Source of the DNA: Fibrobacterales bacterium Fibro_02
Lineage (GTDB): Bacteria; Fibrobacterota; Fibrobacteria; Fibrobacterales; Fibrobacteraceae
Direction of reading: 5' to 3'
Assembly (NCBI GenBank): GCA_001603905.1
Contig: LVAE01000008.1
Coordinates: 1-64,000, forward strand
Length of the DNA: 64,000 nt
Below the pieces are notes generated by a model. The model searched no databases. It saw only the letters and a program-made list of their open reading frames with translations, and was not told the DNA's origin. This document shows positions 1,031-31,993 of the stretch, piece after piece; position 1 is the stretch's first letter, and every line of letters starts with the position of its first letter. The translations under genes and the position numbers were made by a program.

Positions 1031-1324
1031 ATTTTTTCCTAAATTCTGTAAAATGCGATTTTTTACAGAATTATAGTAAAAATATACGTTATTTCGCCGA
1101 AAATTCAAGGTGGTAAGCCTACTTTCACTCATATAATCTCCTTTGACAGACAAGCAGAAACTGTCAAGTAATGAACATTTGTTCACTATAAATATAGTTC
1201 CTCAAGGGGAGGATGTCAAGAGATTTTCGAAAAATTCGCATTTTTCTCTCGAACGGGGACATGTTATGGTTGACTGTCGCCTTTTGTCATTCCAATAATC
1301 TATATTATAGGTGTAAAATAGAGT

Positions 1325-1556
1325 TTTTGCTCTTGTTCTCCATCTGGAAACTAGACACTTTCATGAATACGGAGAATGAGGCGAACGCTCACGTCTGCGA
1401 CCGGCTTAGGCCTGCCGCATCGTTTTGGTACATGCATATTTGATAAATCTGCCTGTAGGCAAGCGGCCATTATGGGGCGTGAGTTGTTTGCGCTTATTGT
1501 ATTCGGGCAGTCTAGGCCTCCAGATGATAGGTGCATTCAACTCCACGCCTTTTTTG
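1325..1556 (+). ncRNA. Putative structured RNA, copy A, with intrinsic-terminator-like 3' end
   Basis: Stem CTTGTTCTCC (1332-1341)/GGAGAATGAG (1371-1380), conserved GGCGAACGCTCACG, internal hairpins, closing stem GGCGTGAGTTG (1476-1486)/CAACTCCACGCC (1538-1549) followed by TTTTTT; homologous to 27390-27630. Confidence 0.65.
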
Positions 1557-1943: not shown

Positions 1944-3077
1944 GTGGCATCAAAAAAGCCATATACATTCGTCGATTTGTTCGCTGGCTGCGGCGGATTG
2001 AGCACTGGTCTAGAACAAGCAGGATTCACTCCGTGCTTTGTCAACGAAATTGTAGAAACTTACTGCAACACCTACAAAAAAAATCATGTTCTTTCCGATG
2101 AACAATATTTTGTTGGCGACATCAACGAACTTAATAAGAATTTAAGTAATTACAAACGCCATATTTCTAATGCAACACTAGTTTGCGGAGGCCCTCCCTG
2201 TCAGGGATTTTCTATGGCAAATCGTCAAAGAGTCATAGACGATCCAAGGAATAACTTATACAAAGCGTATTTAACATTTTTGCGATATGCTCGTCCCCAT
2301 TTCTTCATTATGGAAAATGTCAAGGGAATGGCGAATAAGATTTCTGAGATAAAGGAAAATTTCAAAGAATATCTTGGTGATGAGTATCAATTTGATTACG
2401 CATTATTAAGAGCGCAAGATTATGGAGTTCCCCAAAATCGTGAACGATTAATCTTTATCGGTAATCGTGATGGGGTTGATCCAAAGCAAATATTTGCTGA
2501 AATAGAAAAGCAAAAGCGACCAGCATTTACGCTGAAAGATGCGTTGATTGGCTTGCCTCATTTGGAGGCTCGAAAAGAGAAAGGTCAGCAAGACGTTGAA
2601 AACGAAGAGTCTGGATTCACAGTAAGGAAATTCAAATACCCCAAGAATGATTTTTATCAATTTATCAATGGCAAAAGAAATATTGACAAACTTTACAATC
2701 ACAAGAATCGCTACAACAACGAACGTGATATAGAAATTTATCGACGTCTGCCGCAAGGAGCCAATTCTTTGCACGAATCAATTGCAGACATAATGCCATA
2801 TAAAAAACGTAATGACATTTTCAAGGACAAGTATTTCAAACTTGACGAGACCCAAATATGTAAGACGATTACGTCTCACATGAAGTTTGATTGCAACATG
2901 TATATCCATCCTTGGGAAGCCCGAGGATTAAGCCCTAGAGAAGCGGCACGAATACAAACCTTTCCGGATGATTACATCTTCACTGGTCCACAAAATTCTT
3001 GGTATGCGCAAATTGGTAACGCAGTTCCTGTAAAGTTGGCTTTTGTGATTGGCAACGCCATAAGGAAGTTCCTATGA
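1944..3077 (+). CDS. DNA (cytosine-5-)-methyltransferase, M1 of LlaJI-like R-M system
   Basis: FVDLFAGCGGLSTGLEQAGF, GGPPCQGFSMANRQR, MENVKGM and C-terminal QIGNAVPVKLA motifs; GTG start at 1944 preceded by AAGGAG. Confidence 0.93.
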   Translation: MASKKPYTFVDLFAGCGGLSTGLEQAGFTPCFVNEIVETYCNTYKKNHVLSDEQYFVGDINELNKNLSNYKRHISNATLVCGGPPCQGFSMANRQRVIDDPRNNLYKAYLTFLRYARPHFFIMENVKGMANKISEIKENFKEYLGDEYQFDYALLRAQDYGVPQNRERLIFIGNRDGVDPKQIFAEIEKQKRPAFTLKDALIGLPHLEARKEKGQQDVENEESGFTVRKFKYPKNDFYQFINGKRNIDKLYNHKNRYNNERDIEIYRRLPQGANSLHESIADIMPYKKRNDIFKDKYFKLDETQICKTITSHMKFDCNMYIHPWEARGLSPREAARIQTFPDDYIFTGPQNSWYAQIGNAVPVKLAFVIGNAIRKFL

Positions 3078-4150
3078 AGCATTTAGAATTATTTGCTGGA
3101 ATAGGGGGCTTCAGAAGAGCTATAGACCTTATAGGGAAAGACCTGTGCATTCCTATAGAATGCGTTGGTTATTCTGAAATAGACACAAAGGCTGTTCAAA
3201 CCTACCAAGCATGTTATTCGCCCAAAGATGATGAAAGGGCGATTGGTGACATCGTTGCATTTACGGCAAAGAAAAGTAATATAAGAAGTTTGCCCAATTT
3301 TGACATTTTAACGGGAGGTTTTCCCTGTCAGACTTTTAGTATGATGGGAAAACAGGCAGGTTTTGGTGAAGAACGAGGTCAAATGTTCTTCAGGATAATG
3401 GATATACTGAATGTAAAGAAGCCTAAGTATGCTCTGTTGGAAAATGTGAAAAATCTAGTCAATCATGATGGTGGCAATACATTTAAACGAATCGTTGCAG
3501 AGTTAGAGGGGTTAGGATATTCAGTCTATTACGATGTTTTTGATACAGCAGATTTTCATCTGCCTCAAAAAAGAAATAGAATAGTGATTTTTGCAACTAG
3601 GGCTCAATCAAAGAAAAAGCCACTTAAAGATTTTAGTGCCCAAAATGTCATAAATCTTTTTGAACAAGATTATAAAAAATTGAGTGTTCTACACTATAAA
3701 AATGTTTGCGGAGTTCTCTCAAAAAAAGTTGATGTCAAATACTTTTTATCAGAGAGAATCAAGCCGACCTTGTTGAGCAATGGCTCTGCAGGCTTTAAAT
3801 CCAAGTCTGATATTAATCAGATTGTTGCACGCCCTTTAACAGCGACGATGCATAAAATGCATCGAGCCTGTCAAGATAATTATTATAGCCAAGATTTTAT
3901 TGAGTCTAATGGTAAAATCAATCCTGTAAAAGCTATGTCAAAAGACGAATTGGCAAAATTGCAAATTCGAAAATTGACACCTGAAGAAGCCTTTATGTTA
4001 CAGGGTTTCCCGTCCGATTTTGCCCTTAAGGGGCGTCAAAAAGGTGTTGCTGACGGAGCTCTATACAAACAAGCTGGAAATGCAGTGAGTGTCAATACAA
4101 TATATGCAGTTCTTTATTTCCTTATAAAAAACAATTATATGGAGGTGTAG
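3074..4150 (+). CDS. DNA (cytosine-5-)-methyltransferase, M2 of LlaJI-like R-M system
   Basis: LELFAGIGGFRRAI, GGFPCQTFSMMGKQ, LENVKNL, KQAGNAVSV motifs; 4-nt overlap (ATGA) with upstream gene. Confidence 0.93.
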   Translation: MKHLELFAGIGGFRRAIDLIGKDLCIPIECVGYSEIDTKAVQTYQACYSPKDDERAIGDIVAFTAKKSNIRSLPNFDILTGGFPCQTFSMMGKQAGFGEERGQMFFRIMDILNVKKPKYALLENVKNLVNHDGGNTFKRIVAELEGLGYSVYYDVFDTADFHLPQKRNRIVIFATRAQSKKKPLKDFSAQNVINLFEQDYKKLSVLHYKNVCGVLSKKVDVKYFLSERIKPTLLSNGSAGFKSKSDINQIVARPLTATMHKMHRACQDNYYSQDFIESNGKINPVKAMSKDELAKLQIRKLTPEEAFMLQGFPSDFALKGRQKGVADGALYKQAGNAVSVNTIYAVLYFLIKNNYMEV

Positions 4151-4151
4151 C

Positions 4152-5795
4152 ATGAATTTTTTAGAAGTTTACAATCTGATTCTCGAATCATGCCCTTTCC
4201 TAGGCGGAAACAGCTACGATGGAATTATCGTAAAAAAACTTGCCGCAACAAATACAATTTCTGATACAGGTTCGTCCCATCAGTCGCATATGGCGTTTAC
4301 AGGGAAACAAAAGGATTTCTTTCCTTTTTTGGAAGCGGATGGATATTTTAACGTTGGGTACGACAGCAAAGACGATGATTTAAAAAAATACTTCACACTG
4401 CGAATTCCGTTAAACATTTATGCAGAAAATGTGAATTCTTTATCTCAAGAACACGCTTCAATAGAATTTAATTCACCAAAAAAAATTGTAAGAGCAAGCG
4501 TCTTACGTAGTAGAAGAAAAGGTCAAGAAGACCAAGTTGAATTATCTATAAAGAGTCTTGACGACAAAGATTTCATTGAATTTCGAAAATTATTACGAGT
4601 AAACGATTTTTTTGTCATACTAAAGAAACAGAATGTATTAGAATATGATTTGATCGGAATATCTGGTTCTGACAAAAACGCTGCGGTTTTGGCGACATGT
4701 ACAGATTTCTACAAGTTGACGACACAGACTCCGGTCGACATTGACTTTTTTGGTGATGTAAAAAAGGATGCTAACGAGAGCAATATACTTCCCTTCACTC
4801 CCTCTCAAATAATCTACTACGGGGTTCCGGGTTGCGGAAAGAGCAATAAAATCAGGGAGCAACTGAAGGATGTTCCTGAGAAAAACAAGATTCGTGTCGT
4901 ATTCCACCCGGAATACACCAACGCCGAATTCATCGGTCAGATTTTACCGAAAGTCAACGGTCACGTCACCTACGAATTTACTCCTGGGCCGTTTACGCAA
5001 ATTATCAAGCGGGCGTACCTTAATCCTAATGAACATTTTTACCTAGTTATCGAAGAAATCAACCGCGGTAATGCGGCCGCCATTTTCGGCGACACCTTCC
5101 AGTTGTTGGATAGGCTCAAGGCTGGCGAGACGGACTCTCTCGGCAACGACCCTGCAAATGCGGCGGTAAACACGTTTACAGAAGGCTGGAGCCAGTATTT
5201 TGTCCAGAACGATGATGTCAACGCCTATATTCGAGGAACTGAAAATAGCATTCAGATTGGGAATATTCGCTTTGATTTGAATACGGCTATCCGCTTGCCG
5301 CCTAACCTTTCCATCTTGGCGACGATGAATACTAGCGACCAGAATGTGTTCACGTTGGATAACGCATTCCAGCGCCGTTTCGACATGGAACTGGTTCGCA
5401 ACGAATTTGACCTCACTAAGCCTGCCGTCAATGCTCAGTACAACGCAGAAATTGACGATACCGGTATTAAATGGGGACAATTCTGGGGATGGATCAACGC
5501 CAAAATTACGGCTACCCTCAAAGGGCTTTCCAGCACTGAAGACAAACGGCTCGGAGTCTGGTTCGTGAGCAACGTGGGTGGTATTATTGACGACAAGGTC
5601 TTTGCAGAAAAGGTCCTGAAGTTCCTGTGGGATGACGTTTTCAAATTCAAGCGTCCGCAGATTTTTGCAGATGGTATCGATACCTTGGAAAAGTTGATCA
5701 ACTCCTTTGAAAAACCGTCTGAAGGGAAAGAACGCTTTGACGTTTTTAAGGACAAGGCGAATCTTGTCGCATTTGTGGCATCGCCAACGCTGTAA
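4152..5795 (+). CDS. McrB-like AAA+ NTPase subunit of LlaJI-like restriction system
   Basis: Walker A YYGVPGCGKSNKIRE, VIEEINRGNAAAIFGDTFQLLDR, ATMNTSDQNVFTLDNAFQRRFD; N-terminal ~210 aa with no motif I recognise. Confidence 0.85.
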   Translation: MNFLEVYNLILESCPFLGGNSYDGIIVKKLAATNTISDTGSSHQSHMAFTGKQKDFFPFLEADGYFNVGYDSKDDDLKKYFTLRIPLNIYAENVNSLSQEHASIEFNSPKKIVRASVLRSRRKGQEDQVELSIKSLDDKDFIEFRKLLRVNDFFVILKKQNVLEYDLIGISGSDKNAAVLATCTDFYKLTTQTPVDIDFFGDVKKDANESNILPFTPSQIIYYGVPGCGKSNKIREQLKDVPEKNKIRVVFHPEYTNAEFIGQILPKVNGHVTYEFTPGPFTQIIKRAYLNPNEHFYLVIEEINRGNAAAIFGDTFQLLDRLKAGETDSLGNDPANAAVNTFTEGWSQYFVQNDDVNAYIRGTENSIQIGNIRFDLNTAIRLPPNLSILATMNTSDQNVFTLDNAFQRRFDMELVRNEFDLTKPAVNAQYNAEIDDTGIKWGQFWGWINAKITATLKGLSSTEDKRLGVWFVSNVGGIIDDKVFAEKVLKFLWDDVFKFKRPQIFADGIDTLEKLINSFEKPSEGKERFDVFKDKANLVAFVASPTL

Positions 5796-5801
5796 TCCTA
5801 G

Positions 5802-7151
5802 ATGCAAAAGTTGAACGAAATATGTTTCTGCGAATCCAAGGCGAATTCGGAGACCGAGTTCGTCGGCATTCGTAGTGAAAAATCAAAGGAAGGTGGTGTG
5901 CTAGAAACAAGCATCATCTTTCCCTTGGGATATTTCAAAGATGACTCGGCCTTGCGCGAGCTCCCCGAAGAAGAATTACGGGAATGTGTCGTCAATCTTT
6001 TTACGGTGCTTTCTGACCGTTCGCTGCAGGAACAGATTCATCAGGATTCGTTCATTTCCACATTCGCAGAGGAACATGGCGAATCTGAATTCCCGATGGT
6101 TTCGTACTTGAATGTTATTCGGAACTTTCTTGATTTCGGCTACCTTGACGAAAAGGAAATTCTGTACAAAAAGGGCGCGAACGGGAAAATCAGTTGGGGA
6201 CGGACAATCAAGGCCGTGCAACCTGTCATTACCGAAGATGCCCAGAATCTTGTGTATCTGGATTTTGTCGCCCGTAAAGTCAGTTATAACGAAGATACGC
6301 TCATTACGCAGGTCCACAAGTTCTGCGTTCATGACGCTCTTGTGAAACTCGGATTTTTGTTTGGCATAGATCCGTCCGAAGAGCCTCAGTTGGATTTTGA
6401 TTATGACCTGTTCTGCAACGCAATTCATTCTAAACTTGCGAAAACGTTTAATGACCGCGATTTACGCTTGCTCGCCGACTTGGCGCGAATTGTGGAGTAT
6501 CTTGCCGGGCATAAAACCGAAGACGGAAAGACTGCAAACGAATTCTATTTTGGGGTAAACAAGTTCGCCCCCGTGTGGGAAGCGATGGTGGATAAGATTT
6601 TCGGGAAGTTGCCTGCGGGTGTATCTCGCGACAAGTTTAATCCGCATTGCAATTGGGACTTGGCTTCGGGCCTACCTTTTAAAGAAAATCCCAATTATGC
6701 CATGCGGCCCGATACGATTATGTCGCTTTCGTCGGGCGTATATGTCATTGATGCGAAATACTATAAGTTTGGTGTGTCGCAGAACCCGATGGACTTGCCG
6801 TCTTCAGGCTCAATCTGCAAGCAGATTGCGTATGCGGAATATGTGGAAACGCATTTAAAGGAGATCCCCGCCTTCGCGGGAATGACCTCGGATTCAATTT
6901 ACAATGCGTTTATTATGCCGTTTTGTGCGGAAGATGAAATGGACTCTATCGCTTCGCTCCAGAGTGACAAACCATATAAGATGAATTTTATCGGGTGTTG
7001 CTCGGGCGATTGGAAAAATCCCGATGCTCGCCCATACCACAAGATTGCGGGCATCCTCCTTGACGTGAAATCCGTCATGCAGAACTATAGCGCGAATTCT
7101 GATGCACAAAAGGCTCTAGCCGACTTGATTTTGTGTAAGAAATCGCGCTAA
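5802..7151 (+). CDS. LlaJI-family restriction endonuclease subunit
   Basis: Position after M-M-McrB-like, and nuclease-like motif RPDTIMSL...GVYVIDAKYYKFGV. Confidence 0.8.
   Translation: MQKLNEICFCESKANSETEFVGIRSEKSKEGGVLETSIIFPLGYFKDDSALRELPEEELRECVVNLFTVLSDRSLQEQIHQDSFISTFAEEHGESEFPMVSYLNVIRNFLDFGYLDEKEILYKKGANGKISWGRTIKAVQPVITEDAQNLVYLDFVARKVSYNEDTLITQVHKFCVHDALVKLGFLFGIDPSEEPQLDFDYDLFCNAIHSKLAKTFNDRDLRLLADLARIVEYLAGHKTEDGKTANEFYFGVNKFAPVWEAMVDKIFGKLPAGVSRDKFNPHCNWDLASGLPFKENPNYAMRPDTIMSLSSGVYVIDAKYYKFGVSQNPMDLPSSGSICKQIAYAEYVETHLKEIPAFAGMTSDSIYNAFIMPFCAEDEMDSIASLQSDKPYKMNFIGCCSGDWKNPDARPYHKIAGILLDVKSVMQNYSANSDAQKALADLILCKKSR
6862..6887. repeat. Intragenic palindromic repeat translated as IPAFAGMT
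   Basis: AGATCCCCGCCTTCGCGGGAATGACC inside the restriction endonuclease gene; matches the widespread CCCCGCCTTCGCGGGGATGAC dispersed repeat type. Confidence 0.7.
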
Positions 7152-27389: not shown

Positions 27390-27632
27390 AAAGAGTTTTC
27401 CTCTTGCCCTCTAAACGAAATCTCGACCATTTCTAAAACCGAGGACAAGGCGAACGCTCACGCAGGTATGCCGGTTTTGGCGTACTTCAGTTTGCTGTAC
27501 CGACTTTATGGTCGGTCTTTGGTCGTATGGCCAAGGGCAACAGCCCTTTTGGGGCGTGGGTCGTTTGTGTTTATCGGTTTGAGGCAGTCGAGAGCCCCGT
27601 TTAGGTAAATGCAACGATCTGCGCCTTTTCTT
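27390..27632 (+). ncRNA. Putative structured RNA, copy B, with terminator-like 3' end
   Basis: Stem CTTGCCCTC (27403-27411)/GAGGACAAG (27441-27449), conserved AAGGCGAACGCTCACG, hairpins GTATGCC/GGCGTAC, ACCGAC/GTCGGT, AAGGGC/GCCCTT, closing stem GGCGTGGGTCGTT (27553-27565)/AACGATCTGCGCC (27613-27625) then TTTT. Confidence 0.65.
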
Positions 27633-27825
27633 GTATCTACACGAAATTGGCAATCCTTGCTGAGCAGGGGCGAACTCCGGAAATTTCATTGAAGGAGAAA
27701 TGCGTCGCTGTCCCTGCGATTTATTCAATGAAAAAAATGAGCTTTTGCAAACGCAAAACGCACCACGTCGAAACCCGCACGGCATGGTGTGTAACAGTGT
27801 GCGGGGTATACTCTAGAGGTATAAT

Positions 27826-27963
27826 ATGAAAACAACAAAGAAGATGGCTTACAAGAAGCCCCGTCTTATCGCAAAGAACAACCCGACCGGTAGCTTCGCT
27901 GCTGGTTGCCCGACCAATGAGGGCTATGGTGCATTCTGCCGTATTTGTGAACGTACCATGTAA
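27826..27963 (+). CDS. Putative RiPP precursor peptide, 45 aa
   Basis: MKTTKKMAYKKPRLIAKNNPTGSFAAGCPTNEGYGAFCRICERTM*; below the ORF-track size cutoff; basic leader, Cys-containing C-terminus, upstream of a radical SAM/SPASM enzyme; AGAGG Shine-Dalgarno-like sequence. Confidence 0.7.
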   Translation: MKTTKKMAYKKPRLIAKNNPTGSFAAGCPTNEGYGAFCRICERTM

Positions 27964-28028
27964 AAAATTTTCCTAAGGTGGGGCAAATCGCCCTGCTTTA
28001 GGGATATGTGTTAATTTAAGGAAATGCA

Positions 28029-28688
28029 ATGATTATAGCTCGTTATTTACTTCATAAAATGAAAGAAGATGCTTTCGTTCAATTTCAAAAAGCTGTTGGT
28101 TCGATTTTTTCATCTATAAAAGGAAACTCATTTGTTTTTGTTTCTCATAACATCCCAGACAGTTCGCAAGATTCACTTTATTCTATTTTGAATGTTGCTG
28201 GCATCAATAAAGAGCCAAATTCTGAAGATTTACAGATAATTAATCAAATCTTTTCGAATTCGAATCTTCTAACTCAAGATAACATTTCGCAATATCGTAT
28301 TCAGCATGCTGATGTTGTCATTGCCCCCTTTGTAAATGATGAAAAAGATTTAGACTTGTTAAGAAAGATTGAAAATCAGGTTGAATGCCGTATTGTTGTT
28401 TTGCTTGAAGGCTCGTTAAAATCGATTAACCCACTTTTGGATGGTTCCGATAAATTATTAGATATCTATAATATAAAATCTTGTTTTGATAGTCAAAACA
28501 TTTTTTCAAACGATGTTCAGTGTCGTAATGAAGCAAAAAAATGGTTGTATTCTTTACTAAAATATAACTTGTCATTTAAAGAATATTTATCTCTGTTTGA
28601 TGATTATATGGATACATGCGGATTCGATGAACGAGAAAAGAAAAAACAATTTGAACGAATAAACAATCTAGAAATCTATTTGGATTAA
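28029..28688 (+). CDS. Hypothetical protein in radical-SAM locus
   Basis: ORF of 219 aa between precursor and radical SAM gene; no motif recognised. Confidence 0.65.
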   Translation: MIIARYLLHKMKEDAFVQFQKAVGSIFSSIKGNSFVFVSHNIPDSSQDSLYSILNVAGINKEPNSEDLQIINQIFSNSNLLTQDNISQYRIQHADVVIAPFVNDEKDLDLLRKIENQVECRIVVLLEGSLKSINPLLDGSDKLLDIYNIKSCFDSQNIFSNDVQCRNEAKKWLYSLLKYNLSFKEYLSLFDDYMDTCGFDEREKKKQFERINNLEIYLD

Positions 28689-28759
28689 CCCCCTTTTTTA
28701 GAACCTCCCTGTTATCGAGGTCCTTGTTTACTCTCTAAACCTTTTGTAGGAGAAAAAGA

Positions 28760-28981
28760 ATGAAAGCAAAAATTCCGCCGGAGTTAAAAGATCACAAAAT
28801 CAACAACGAAAATGGAATATTAGACGAAAATGAAGATTATATACTGAGGAATACAACAGATCTTTCAGAAGAGGAACGAAAAGAAGAAATTCAATTACAC
28901 AAAAAACAGGAAGATGAACAGCTTCAAAATTCTTCGGAAATATCAAAATTAACAAAATTTATTTCTAGAGAAGAGGTGTAA
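28760..28981 (+). CDS. Small highly charged protein in radical-SAM locus
   Basis: 73 aa, GGAG-type RBS, ends adjacent to the radical SAM start. Confidence 0.6.
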   Translation: MKAKIPPELKDHKINNENGILDENEDYILRNTTDLSEEERKEEIQLHKKQEDEQLQNSSEISKLTKFISREEV

Positions 28982-30439
28982 ATGTTTTACCGTCAATCTC
29001 GCGATACTTTTATCCGTTCCATCGGTGAGTATGGCTATATCTATAGCCAACTTACCAAACACGACCGTACCTACACTCAGGAAGGATGTGCGTTTCTGTC
29101 CGTTATTTCTCGTGAACCGCAAAGTTTGCAAGATCTTTCGGCAAAAGCATGCGAATACTTTGAAGATGTAACTCCTGAAGATATTCAAAATGACATGAAG
29201 GAATTCTTGGATTCCCTAGTTGCCGACCGCTATTTGGTTTGTGCTGAAAATGCTGAAGAATGTGCTGCTAAGGATACATTCTTTAGTTATGCTGAAAATC
29301 CGAAAACATTGTTCACATACAACGCTCAACAAAATCCTGATGACAAAAAACTCTATACCGATACGCAAGAACTTTTAGGAGACTGGTTTCGCGAACATCC
29401 GCAAATTCACAGTTGCCAAATTGAAACGACGAATCGCTGCAACGAGCGTTGTATCCACTGCTACATTCCCCATGAAATGAAAAATGTGGTTTTGCCCTAC
29501 GAAGTGATTGAAAGCGTCCTCAACCAGTTACACGATTTAGGTGTGATGGGATTGACTCTCTCCGGTGGAGAATTATTCACACATCCCGATGCGGAAAAAA
29601 TTCTGCGCAAGGCCCGCGAACTTGATTTTAGTTTCTACGTGCTATCGAACATTACTTTGCTTACTCCGCACATGATAGAAGTTCTCAAGGATGTCAATCC
29701 AAATTATGTGCAGACGTCACTTTACAGCGTTGTTCCCGAAGAGCATGACCATATTACTCAACTAAAGGGATCCTGCGAAAAGACAAAGGCCGCTATTGAC
29801 GCCTTGATTGCGGCGAACATACCCGTGCAAATCAGTTGCCCTGTGATGAAGACGAATTATCACACCTATAAAGATGTATTGAAATACGCTTACGAACGCA
29901 ATTGTAAAGCACAAACTGACTTCGTGATGATGGCTCGATACGATTTTACTACGGATAATCTTGCTGAACGTTTGACGATGGAACAAACAGAAGAGTTACT
30001 CAAGGATATCATTCAGTTTGATCGAGACTATTTAAAGTTGACCGATACACCGGTGCCACCTGTTTCTCGCGAAGAATGGGGAAAACAACCTTTCTGTGGT
30101 ATAGGTATGGATAATCTCTGCATCGCTAGCGACGGCATTGTGTATCCGTGTAGCGGTTGGCAGGGGATGGCTTGCGGCAATGTTCGCGAACAACCTATCA
30201 AGGATATCTGGGAAAAGTCCCCGCAACTGAACAAACTTCGCAACCTTACAAAATCTGCGATTCCGCAATGCTACGATTGTGAAGATAAACAGTTCTGTGC
30301 TCCATGTCTTGTTCGTAATTTCAACGAAAGCGGCGGTGATTATCTGAAGGTTGCTCCGCATTTCTGCAAGGCCGCTCACTTGAATCGCAAACTTGTTGTA
30401 GAAGCAAAGGCTAAAATGCGTAAAGAAAAAGCCGGTTAG
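28982..30439 (+). CDS. Radical SAM/SPASM peptide maturase with N-terminal PqqD-like (RRE) region
   Basis: QIETTNRCNERCIHCYIP (CX3CX2C); C-terminal SPASM Cys cluster CGIGMDNLC..YPCSGWQGMACGNV..CYDCEDKQFCAPC..FC; ~110 aa N-terminal PqqD-like segment. Confidence 0.85.
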   Translation: MFYRQSRDTFIRSIGEYGYIYSQLTKHDRTYTQEGCAFLSVISREPQSLQDLSAKACEYFEDVTPEDIQNDMKEFLDSLVADRYLVCAENAEECAAKDTFFSYAENPKTLFTYNAQQNPDDKKLYTDTQELLGDWFREHPQIHSCQIETTNRCNERCIHCYIPHEMKNVVLPYEVIESVLNQLHDLGVMGLTLSGGELFTHPDAEKILRKARELDFSFYVLSNITLLTPHMIEVLKDVNPNYVQTSLYSVVPEEHDHITQLKGSCEKTKAAIDALIAANIPVQISCPVMKTNYHTYKDVLKYAYERNCKAQTDFVMMARYDFTTDNLAERLTMEQTEELLKDIIQFDRDYLKLTDTPVPPVSREEWGKQPFCGIGMDNLCIASDGIVYPCSGWQGMACGNVREQPIKDIWEKSPQLNKLRNLTKSAIPQCYDCEDKQFCAPCLVRNFNESGGDYLKVAPHFCKAAHLNRKLVVEAKAKMRKEKAG

Positions 30440-30477
30440 AGATTACCGTGTCACGGTGCTTCTCGCAATGGCAAAAT

Positions 30478-31245
30478 ATGCTTTTCGATTTTCATGTTCA
30501 CATGGGGCAGTATTTTGACGACTACTACACGCCGCCACGAATACTGCGTACCCTGCGACTTGCGGGCATTACACACTTCGCGTATTCTAGCACGAGTACG
30601 GTTGTTACCGATGATCCCGATTTTTTGCTAGAAGAGCGAGTTGCCATGCATGAACTTTCGGAAGGTCGTGCCAAGCCTATTTTGTGGGTGACGCACGATA
30701 TGCTAAAACGCTCGCCAAATTTGTCGCTGTACATGAATGATGCCGGTGGTAAAATTTGTGGGTTGAAAATTCACGGTGTATCGGAAAGTTGGTTGCCGAA
30801 TGGCCGCGAACTGCAACGGATATTCAAAATAGCTCAGGAACGGGGCCTGTTTGTGAAACTCCATACCGGTGAACGGGAAGAATGCGAGGCTGGAATGTAT
30901 AGGGAAATCTGCACGAAATTCCCAGATGTCCGAGTTGTTCTCGCCCATGGAAGACCGATTTTGCAAGCTATTGATATGCTGCGTTATTGTCCGAATACCT
31001 TTGTAGACACATCGTTCATGCCGCATAGCCATTTTCAGTTGCTTATAAACGTTGCACAGCAAGAAGGCTTTACGGATCGTATCCTATTCGGTACGGACAC
31101 CCCTATTCCAGGGCGTCACCTTAAAAGTTCGCTCCCTCGCCATTTGCGAAGTAGAATAGACCAAACAAGGCGAATTGCAGGAGAGGACTGGAAGAAAATC
31201 TCTTGGAAAAATGCGAAAAATCTCTTGACTTTCGTATCGAAATAA
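30478..31245 (+). CDS. Amidohydrolase-family metal-dependent hydrolase
   Basis: MLFDFHVHMGQY, GLKIHGVSE, VKLHTGE, VVLAHGRP, ILFGTDTPIP. Confidence 0.78.
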   Translation: MLFDFHVHMGQYFDDYYTPPRILRTLRLAGITHFAYSSTSTVVTDDPDFLLEERVAMHELSEGRAKPILWVTHDMLKRSPNLSLYMNDAGGKICGLKIHGVSESWLPNGRELQRIFKIAQERGLFVKLHTGEREECEAGMYREICTKFPDVRVVLAHGRPILQAIDMLRYCPNTFVDTSFMPHSHFQLLINVAQQEGFTDRILFGTDTPIPGRHLKSSLPRHLRSRIDQTRRIAGEDWKKISWKNAKNLLTFVSK

Positions 31246-31258
31246 GCGATATATATTG

Positions 31259-31993
31259 ATGAGTATGGTTCCCCGCAAGAAAAGTCTTCTAGCGTTTATT
31301 TTTACGTTCCTGTTGCTTTCGGGCTGCGGGCTCAGCGACGATACCCAGGAACAGCTGGAAGATGCCGTTGGCAGGGCTGCAGGTGAAGCTCTGGATTCCG
31401 CGAAATCTAAAACGGCGAACGCTGTTGAAGAACTTTCTACCACTATCGATGAACACGGTGGTGTTCAAGGCTTTTTTGATAGAATAGTCCAATTCATCGA
31501 TGGATTATTTGGAGGCTCTGGAAGCGAGTGCGAAAAAACGCCCGCAAAAAAGATTGAACGTGATGCTCCTAGGACAGTTATCAAGCGCAATGCGGAACAA
31601 CAGAACTACCACGACGAGGTTCTCAGCCTTACCACCTTAAAAACGTCTTCCGTAAACATTGACTGTCTACGCCCTGAACTGGATACCGCCATAAACATAG
31701 TGGTAGCCACCTATCACGAGGTTTTCAAAGACGACAATTATCGCCCAGTAATCACTAGCGGAAACGATTCCGACAAGCACGGCGAACGATCCGCCCATTA
31801 CGCCTGCGCTGCCGTAGACATCCGGATCAAGGATGTGGAAGATGTTAAGATTCGAAAGGCCCTTACAAAGGCCATTACCGAAGACCTTGGCCCCCGATAC
31901 TTCGTTCTCCATGAGGACGTCGGTATGGCAAATGAGCATCTGCACATTCAACTGAAAAGCGGCACCTACAATAGAAACGAAGTGTGGAAATAA
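31259..31993 (+). CDS. Lipoprotein with M15/LAS-type peptidase-like domain
   Basis: LLLSGCGLSDD lipobox; SAHYACAAVDIRIKD and NEHLHIQLK match the SxHxxGxAxD / HxH pattern. Confidence 0.65.
   Translation: MSMVPRKKSLLAFIFTFLLLSGCGLSDDTQEQLEDAVGRAAGEALDSAKSKTANAVEELSTTIDEHGGVQGFFDRIVQFIDGLFGGSGSECEKTPAKKIERDAPRTVIKRNAEQQNYHDEVLSLTTLKTSSVNIDCLRPELDTAINIVVATYHEVFKDDNYRPVITSGNDSDKHGERSAHYACAAVDIRIKDVEDVKIRKALTKAITEDLGPRYFVLHEDVGMANEHLHIQLKSGTYNRNEVWK

Follow-up and report, generated by a model that had tools for sequence, protein, structure and literature searches.

A probable bistable transcription-attenuator leader RNA ahead of restriction–modification and surface-protein genes in Fibrobacterota and Bacteroidota

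Several described systems of gene control by leader RNA resemble the element reported here in one trait or another. The trp/his-type attenuators (1:2 and 3:4 versus 2:3) share with it near-duplicate arms that vie for a single terminator arm, as well as a mutually exclusive terminator and antiterminator placed between the promoter region and the gene, and the expression platforms of T-boxes and riboswitches share the terminator/antiterminator switch within a structured leader. Plasmid attenuators of the pT181/pIP501 type, which work through kissing antisense RNA, have a counterpart in two complementary loops of the element (b in P2 and b' in P3, defined below) that could nucleate a longer duplex. 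As in the element, ToxIN (type III toxin–antitoxin) leaders lead from a structured RNA through a terminator to the gene, with limited read-through, and the put, EAR and LoaP-associated RNAs likewise head long accessory operons. A structured-RNA screen of human microbiomes has further reported palindromic terminators of Bacteroidetes, for instance, HMP2_4205 near TPR genes (PMC8040213).

The element was studied in a window of 64,000 nucleotides from Fibrobacterales bacterium Fibro_02, in which an earlier note had recognised two copies (A and B) of a structured RNA family and had read them as an independently terminated small RNA. The structured family was confirmed: sequence inspection located all of the shared, ordered blocks in both copies, including (A)GGCGAACGCTCACG, GGGGCGTGrGTyGTTTGyGyTTAT and GGCAGTC, together with the outer stem and the closing terminator stem with its T-run (six T in A, only four in B), and none of 200 dinucleotide shuffles equalled the fold of either copy (z of -3.9 for A and -4.9 for B). 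The second reading fared less well, and we consider it likely that the element acts in cis, as a transcription-attenuator leader able to adopt two folds that exclude each other. Its 5' half consists of a P0 hairpin, presumed to sit at the transcript start, the 5' strand of P1, a, GAAA, b, TTTC, c and the 3' strand of P1; the middle comprises the core 5' arm CGAACGCTCACG, an apical loop or an 80-nt hairpin insert, and GGGCGTGRGTYGTTTGYRYTTAT; the 3' half continues through c', AGG, b', CC, a', RTAAG and the terminator 3' arm to the T-run. In copies A and B these parts lie as follows.

1330-1380, + strand: 5' domain of A, from sequence, with covarying helices; the outer stem P1 (1332-1341 with 1371-1380) encloses a (1341-1347), P2 (GAAA 1347-1350/TTTC 1359-1362), b (1351-1356) and c (1365-1370)
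1382-1395, + strand: segment 2 of A, core 5' arm CGAACGCTCACGTC, which hides the terminator 5' arm in the antiterminator fold
1396-1473, + strand: variable apical insert of A with several hairpins, missing from short-class leaders
1474-1497, + strand: segment 3 of A, GGGGCGTGAGTTGTTTGCGCTTAT, terminator 5' arm or 3' arm of the core hairpin
1499-1526, + strand: 3' loop of A, with c' (1499-1504), P3 (1506-1508/1516-1518) displaying b' (1510-1515), and a' (1520-1526)
1527-1555, + strand: segment 4 and terminator 3' arm of A (1527-1534; 1538-1549), then six T (1550-1555)
27403-27449, + strand: 5' domain of B, with the outer stem P1 (27403-27411/27441-27449), a (27410-27417), b (27421-27427) and c (27436-27441)
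27450-27463, + strand: segment 2 of B, core 5' arm GCGAACGCTCACGC
27464-27550, + strand: apical hairpin insert of B, of the GCAGG... class
27551-27574, + strand: segment 3 of B, GGGGCGTGGGTCGTTTGTGTTTAT
27575-27604, + strand: 3' loop of B, with c' (27575-27580), b' (27587-27593) and a' (27598-27604)
27605-27629, + strand: segment 4 and terminator 3' arm of B (the latter at 27613-27625), then four T

Four segments can be paired in two ways: segment 1 (CTTaTtC), segment 2 (GAatAAG plus CGAACGCTCACG), segment 3 (GGGCGTGRGTYGTTTGYRYTTAT) and segment 4 (RTAAG plus the terminator 3' arm). Pairing of 1:2 and 3:4 gives the terminator fold, that is, P1 and a long intrinsic terminator. Pairing of 2:3 and 1:4 gives the antiterminator fold, in which the core arm with GGGCGTGRGTYGTTTG is lengthened by c:c', b:b' and a:a', helices that link the 5' loop to the terminator loop, into one hairpin, and the terminator 3' arm is left without a partner. 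The P1 strands directly abut a and c, so P1 and the long hairpin are hardly compatible. In the terminator fold, b lies in the loop of P2 (GAAA/TTTC) and b' in that of P3 (AGG/CCT), and the modelled loops could kiss. The earlier note had seen the outer stem and the terminator, which stand, but had missed the competing fold and the three covarying long-range helices. As for P0 (GAG..CTC, AAGC..GCTT), it starts at or inside a TAnnTTTG-like promoter element both in the window (1312-1332) and in the Bacteroidales loci L338, L339, L347 and L362, and the palindrome may be a DNA operator besides, or in place of, an RNA hairpin.

The compensatory changes noted earlier between A and B are genuine and recur across 56 Fibrobacterota and Bacteroidota copies in a model-based alignment. 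The top covarying column pairs fall in P1, a, b, c, the core, the inner terminator and P3, and 17 of the 64 pairs of both folds reach a covariation of at least 25, against one of 11,576 background column pairs, on scores that ignore kinship. P1, the core and the inner terminator helix were aligned by a model already holding those pairs; among the 35 pairs outside that model (R1, below), nine score at least 25. Within the shared arm, covariation links a column both to its core partner and to its terminator partner, as expected for two exclusive helices. In the antiterminator fold 83.5% of the cells are paired (38-44% in slid controls), with double changes in 29 of 31 pairs; the corresponding values for the terminator fold are 90.3% (41-55%) and 24 of 33. 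RNAalifold on a sequence-only alignment recovered P1, the core and the inner terminator helix and missed a, b and c, because MAFFT misregisters these variable helices, a matter settled by the model-based alignment and by comparing own with foreign pairing.

This comparison of pairing energies owes nothing to the way in which the copies were detected, since a, b and c lie outside model R1. Pairing of the 5' domain with the 3' loop of the same copy averages -36.7 kcal/mol across 82 Fibrobacter copies, compared with -17.8 for foreign and -16.9 for shuffled loops, and the own loop is the best partner in 75; in copy A, too, c', b' and a' partner c, b and a of the 5' domain in reverse order, with own pairing far above foreign. 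Each helix contributes (own versus foreign, 67 dereplicated copies): a, -12.1 versus -5.1; b, -11.5 versus -5.4; c, -9.3 versus -3.4. The same holds in more diverged material: among 26 copies taken from Bacteroidales and distant Fibrobacterota, the means are -35.7 for own and -18.3 for foreign loops and the own loop is the best in 23, and the eight copies of a wider Bacteroidota draw give -25.9 versus -15.3. In all 67 dereplicated copies P1 is predicted to form within the first 62 nt, and the core with a, b and c ahead of the terminator 3' arm; the terminator domain folded alone has at least 10 bp between its arms in 66. The folds are predicted to differ by +1.7 +- 6.2 kcal/mol, out of about -76 in all, the energies of the long hairpin being rough, and such near-equality leaves both folds available, as a regulatory switch needs.

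The family is widespread. A search for the pattern GGGCGTGGGTCGTTTGYGTTTAT, allowing up to three mismatches, hits 60 of the 61 Fibrobacter genomes scanned and none of 40 genomes from outside the genus, and the reversed pattern, taken as a control, is near zero; exact matches include F. succinogenes and F. intestinalis ATCC 43854. In the window's own genome, a DNA search found fragments on at least 10 contigs, a scan for the GGCGAACGCTCACG block returned complete copies with their parts in the same order, and covariance model R1, built from 38 short-class copies, counted 18 copies, A and B among them, which bears out the earlier expectation of more than one locus. The covariance-model search that the earlier note had proposed extends the family genus-wide and beyond: R1 matches 79 of 80 Fibrobacter genomes, other genera of the same taxonomic family (up to 17 matches) and, as diverged copies, more distant families of Fibrobacterota, at 1-18 matches per genome. 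An exact match in a Tannerellaceae MAG (L192; model E 2e-8) led us to Bacteroidales, where the model picks up 99 of 296 genomes at E<=1e-4, several of them carrying at least 10 copies; under even sampling of Bacteroidota, 41 of 399 genomes match at E<=1e-5, and in the negative control, the Pseudomonas phylum, 0 of 299 do. The genus-only distribution hinted at by the pattern search was accordingly dropped. Exact pattern matches in Pseudomonas trace to one conserved GC-rich, coding-looking sequence without a terminator, in which the model finds nothing, and the weak model matches L307 and L314 are unconfirmed and were left out of the case.

Mis-binning may account for the Fibrobacter-like copies on some short contigs that bear the labels Bacteroidales, Bacilli or Lachnospiraceae; the diverged copies are of another kind. 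One element sequence recurs unchanged (L145 and L156) in two horse-gut MAGs, named as a Bacteroidales bacterium and as Ca. Colimorpha merdihippi; it lies on a short contig in each, probably as shared mis-binned Fibrobacter DNA or through very recent transfer. At another Bacteroidales locus (L340), two Rfam DUF805 RNAs (RF03081; 1693-1758 and 2657-2725) lie about 1.1 kb or less downstream of the copy.

The placement of the copies relative to genes is equally regular. Even by a crude gene caller, 79 of 86 copies are followed by a first gene that runs in the same direction, and the orientation of the upstream neighbour is random (45 versus 42). The spacing to the co-directional gene is usually about 40-120 nt, and 200-400 nt ahead of type II restriction–modification (R-M) genes. 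An intrinsic terminator upstream of a co-directional gene and a conserved structure that excludes this terminator, with columns shared between covarying folds, are the hallmarks of attenuation; the predicted working of the family is like that of a transcription attenuator. Sequence and the statistics given here together establish the helices of both folds and their exclusive nature, as well as the terminators, the placement and orientation relative to genes and the breadth of the family. The genes led encode R-M systems of types I, II, IIG and III, lipoproteins, SusC-like receptors and a RiPP-like cluster; those in the window, with a further element behind copy A, are given below.

1615-1665, + strand: second copy of the 5' domain of A, with the same a, b and c, about 60 nt beyond the terminator (92% identity)
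1944-7151, + strand: operon behind copy A, encoding, by Pfam, two C5-cytosine DNA methylases (1944-3077 and 3074-4150), an AAA_5/McrB-like protein (4152-5795) and a LlaJI-type restriction endonuclease (5802-7151)
27826-27963, + strand: first ORF behind copy B, a RiPP-precursor-like 45-aa peptide MKTTKKMAYKKPRLIAKNNPTGSFAAGCPTNEGYGAFCRICERTM
28982-30439: radical SAM/SPASM protein behind copy B

The first methylase behind copy A has a GTG start at 1944 and the ribosome site AAGGAG. In the RiPP-like cluster (27826-31990), the radical SAM/SPASM protein carries a PqqD-like region, below the Pfam cut-off, and an amidohydrolase and proteins without a Pfam match are also encoded.

Three classes of leader can be told apart. 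Class M, with a GTCTG-type insert plus GAGTTGTTT or relatives, heads type II R-M operons, whose first genes are C5 methylases in 10 of 16 cases, the others matching EcoRI methylase, Eco57I, N6_N4_Mtase and Tsp45I. About half of 40 short leaders precede a methyltransferase gene (HsdM, type IIG, N6_N4 or another), and GCAGG-type leaders precede lipoproteins, Fib_succ_major, collagen-repeat proteins and a JukA-like gene. The Bacteroidota copies stand mostly 45-155 nt ahead of genes for secreted proteins, lipoproteins, SusC-like receptors, an HTH protein and an R-M protein, the SusC-like and HTH assignments being putative readings of the protein sequences. In three GCAGG-class leaders (L010, L012 and the copy at 6347 of L014) and in the window (27677-27708), a short conserved hairpin, CTCCAT...ATGGAG, follows the leader and overlies the likely ribosome-binding site directly ahead of the start codon; it is possibly a second, translational layer.

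Type II R-M leaders have a peculiarity of their own. The second P1-a-b-c copy seen behind A recurs, about 50 nt after the terminator, in all 15 testable leaders of this kind and in none of 66 other leaders tested. It is matched to its locus, pairing at -34.1 kcal/mol with its own c'b'a' loop and at -22.8 with foreign loops, and in one leader (L102) the second c, judged by eye, suits c' better than the first c does. This second half is probably functional: it might take up the c'b'a' loop in the read-through RNA, or be the target of the terminated leader RNA, adding a further layer of control to type II R-M operons. The region past the second half of A (1614-1832) holds another weak model match, of 22.6 bits, and a GC-rich hairpin with a T-run behind it lies at about 1838-1870; together they may represent a degenerate second switch in tandem.

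The layout of the element is that of a classic expression platform, with conserved internal-loop letters (GAAA opposite GCC, AGG) amid variable helices. We nevertheless regard a metabolite- or ion-binding riboswitch, with a single ligand for all copies and the terminator/antiterminator as its platform, as unlikely: apart from the platform no compact invariant pocket is apparent, no Rfam aptamer matches, and R-M systems, lipoproteins, SusC-like receptors, HTH proteins and a RiPP-like cluster have no metabolite in common. Horizontally acquired and often long operons, such as the R-M, SusC-like and RiPP-like ones, are also the gene class typical of processive antitermination, in which, as with HK022 put, EAR or LoaP-dependent leaders, the long hairpin would bind RNA polymerase or a NusG paralogue so that terminators are ignored. 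This reading seems to us quite unlikely, given that the element has its own terminator, that sequestering the terminator arm by pairing suffices without modification of the polymerase, and that the helices vary in sequence.

The strong terminator at the end of the element speaks for a free-standing small RNA, a terminated product of about 230 nt that would be stable and structured and act in trans on other targets, the downstream genes being incidental; the loops b and b' could pair across molecules, and the locus-matched second 5' half ahead of type II R-M operons could serve as a target in trans. The regular co-directional gene close by, with upstream neighbours at random, and the conserved alternative partner of the terminator arm upstream amount instead to the anatomy of a transcription-attenuator leader, and the 18 copies in one genome carry private helices without a conserved seed, which makes the free-standing small RNA very unlikely. 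Under attenuation, the terminated 230-nt RNA would be a by-product, for which a further role in trans is also conceivable. Extremely unlikely, finally, is a DNA-level repeat (a MITE, an attC-like recombination site or a recombination hot spot) folding by chance: many copies per genome and the likeness of A to L009 (~83% over the leader, with different methyltransferases behind) would suit it, but the helices diverge between copies with compensatory changes, the T-run is on one strand only, position and orientation to genes are fixed, the exact core pattern is absent from viral contigs, and copy A has no blastn match in plasmid and phage collections. The same likeness suggests gene exchange behind the leader.

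For the attenuator leader, which we favour, the following course can be envisaged, with the two folds governing termination in the cell. When segments pair as 1:2 and 3:4, P1 and the intrinsic terminator would form and RNA polymerase would halt ahead of the gene; when they pair as 2:3 and 1:4, with c:c', b:b' and a:a' zipping outward from the core, the terminator 5' arm would be buried and transcription would read through. During transcription the core with a, b and c can pair while the terminator 3' arm is still to be made, so that kinetics may favour the antiterminated fold by default. The gene would then be turned off by way of the 5' domain, through a factor, a ligand, a pause or an RNA contact that stabilises P1/P2, b/b' kissing between the P2 and P3 loops being one possible contact. 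The diversity of the genes makes one metabolite unlikely and favours a general signal or general factor. The differences in a, b and c between copies would reflect compensatory drift, and this divergence would hinder cross-pairing and recombination among the copies of one genome.

No match was found in the whole window with Rfam 15 (4227 models, curated cut-offs), A and B gave only chance matches at E<=10, and 20 Bacteroidales loci lacked any Rfam match on the element, so that the family, in which the earlier note had recognised no named Rfam motif, is a member of no Rfam family. A search of the open literature, supplementary motif lists not covered, found no description; an unnamed earlier prediction may stand in such lists, those of PMC8040213 among them. 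The family is apparently undescribed. Present in a third of the sampled Bacteroidales genomes and in nearly all Fibrobacter, at up to 18 copies in one genome, it would rank among the larger gaps in the known gene control of gut and rumen bacteria, and it predicts which genes share one hidden signal. Heading R-M systems of types I, II, IIG and III, the leader also bears on how incoming restriction systems are switched on. This is usually explained by C-proteins and, to our knowledge, has never been explained by a shared attenuator leader. We offer, as a tentative synthesis that goes beyond the attenuator itself and may well prove too broad, that the family is an undescribed class of bistable leader RNA in Fibrobacterota and Bacteroidota, an interchangeable control module that might place horizontally acquired and surface genes under one shared signal, to which type II R-M operons alone would add the matched second 5' half; through it the read-through RNA, or else the terminated leader acting in trans, would feed back on the switch as an RNA-based timing device for R-M.

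Set against the known systems, the element departs from each in a definable way. In contrast to T-boxes and riboswitches, it has no Rfam match, T-box models included, and no recognised tRNA specifier or ligand pocket, and its downstream genes are metabolically unrelated, not being tied to amino acids. Compared with ToxIN, it has no apparent tandem repeat array and, in the downstream-gene tallies, no ToxN-like family, and it serves many gene families. In comparison with the trp/his-type attenuators, no conserved leader peptide was noticed (neither a conserved start codon nor a ribosome site in the 5' domain of the aligned copies, a chance 26-codon ORF of A not being seen in B), whereas it possesses an additional 1:4 side with three long-range helices and is one RNA family serving dozens of unrelated genes. 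Unlike the pT181/pIP501 attenuators, it shows no antisense gene and holds both kissing partners in one transcript, and unlike put, EAR and LoaP-associated RNAs, it holds and sequesters a terminator of its own.
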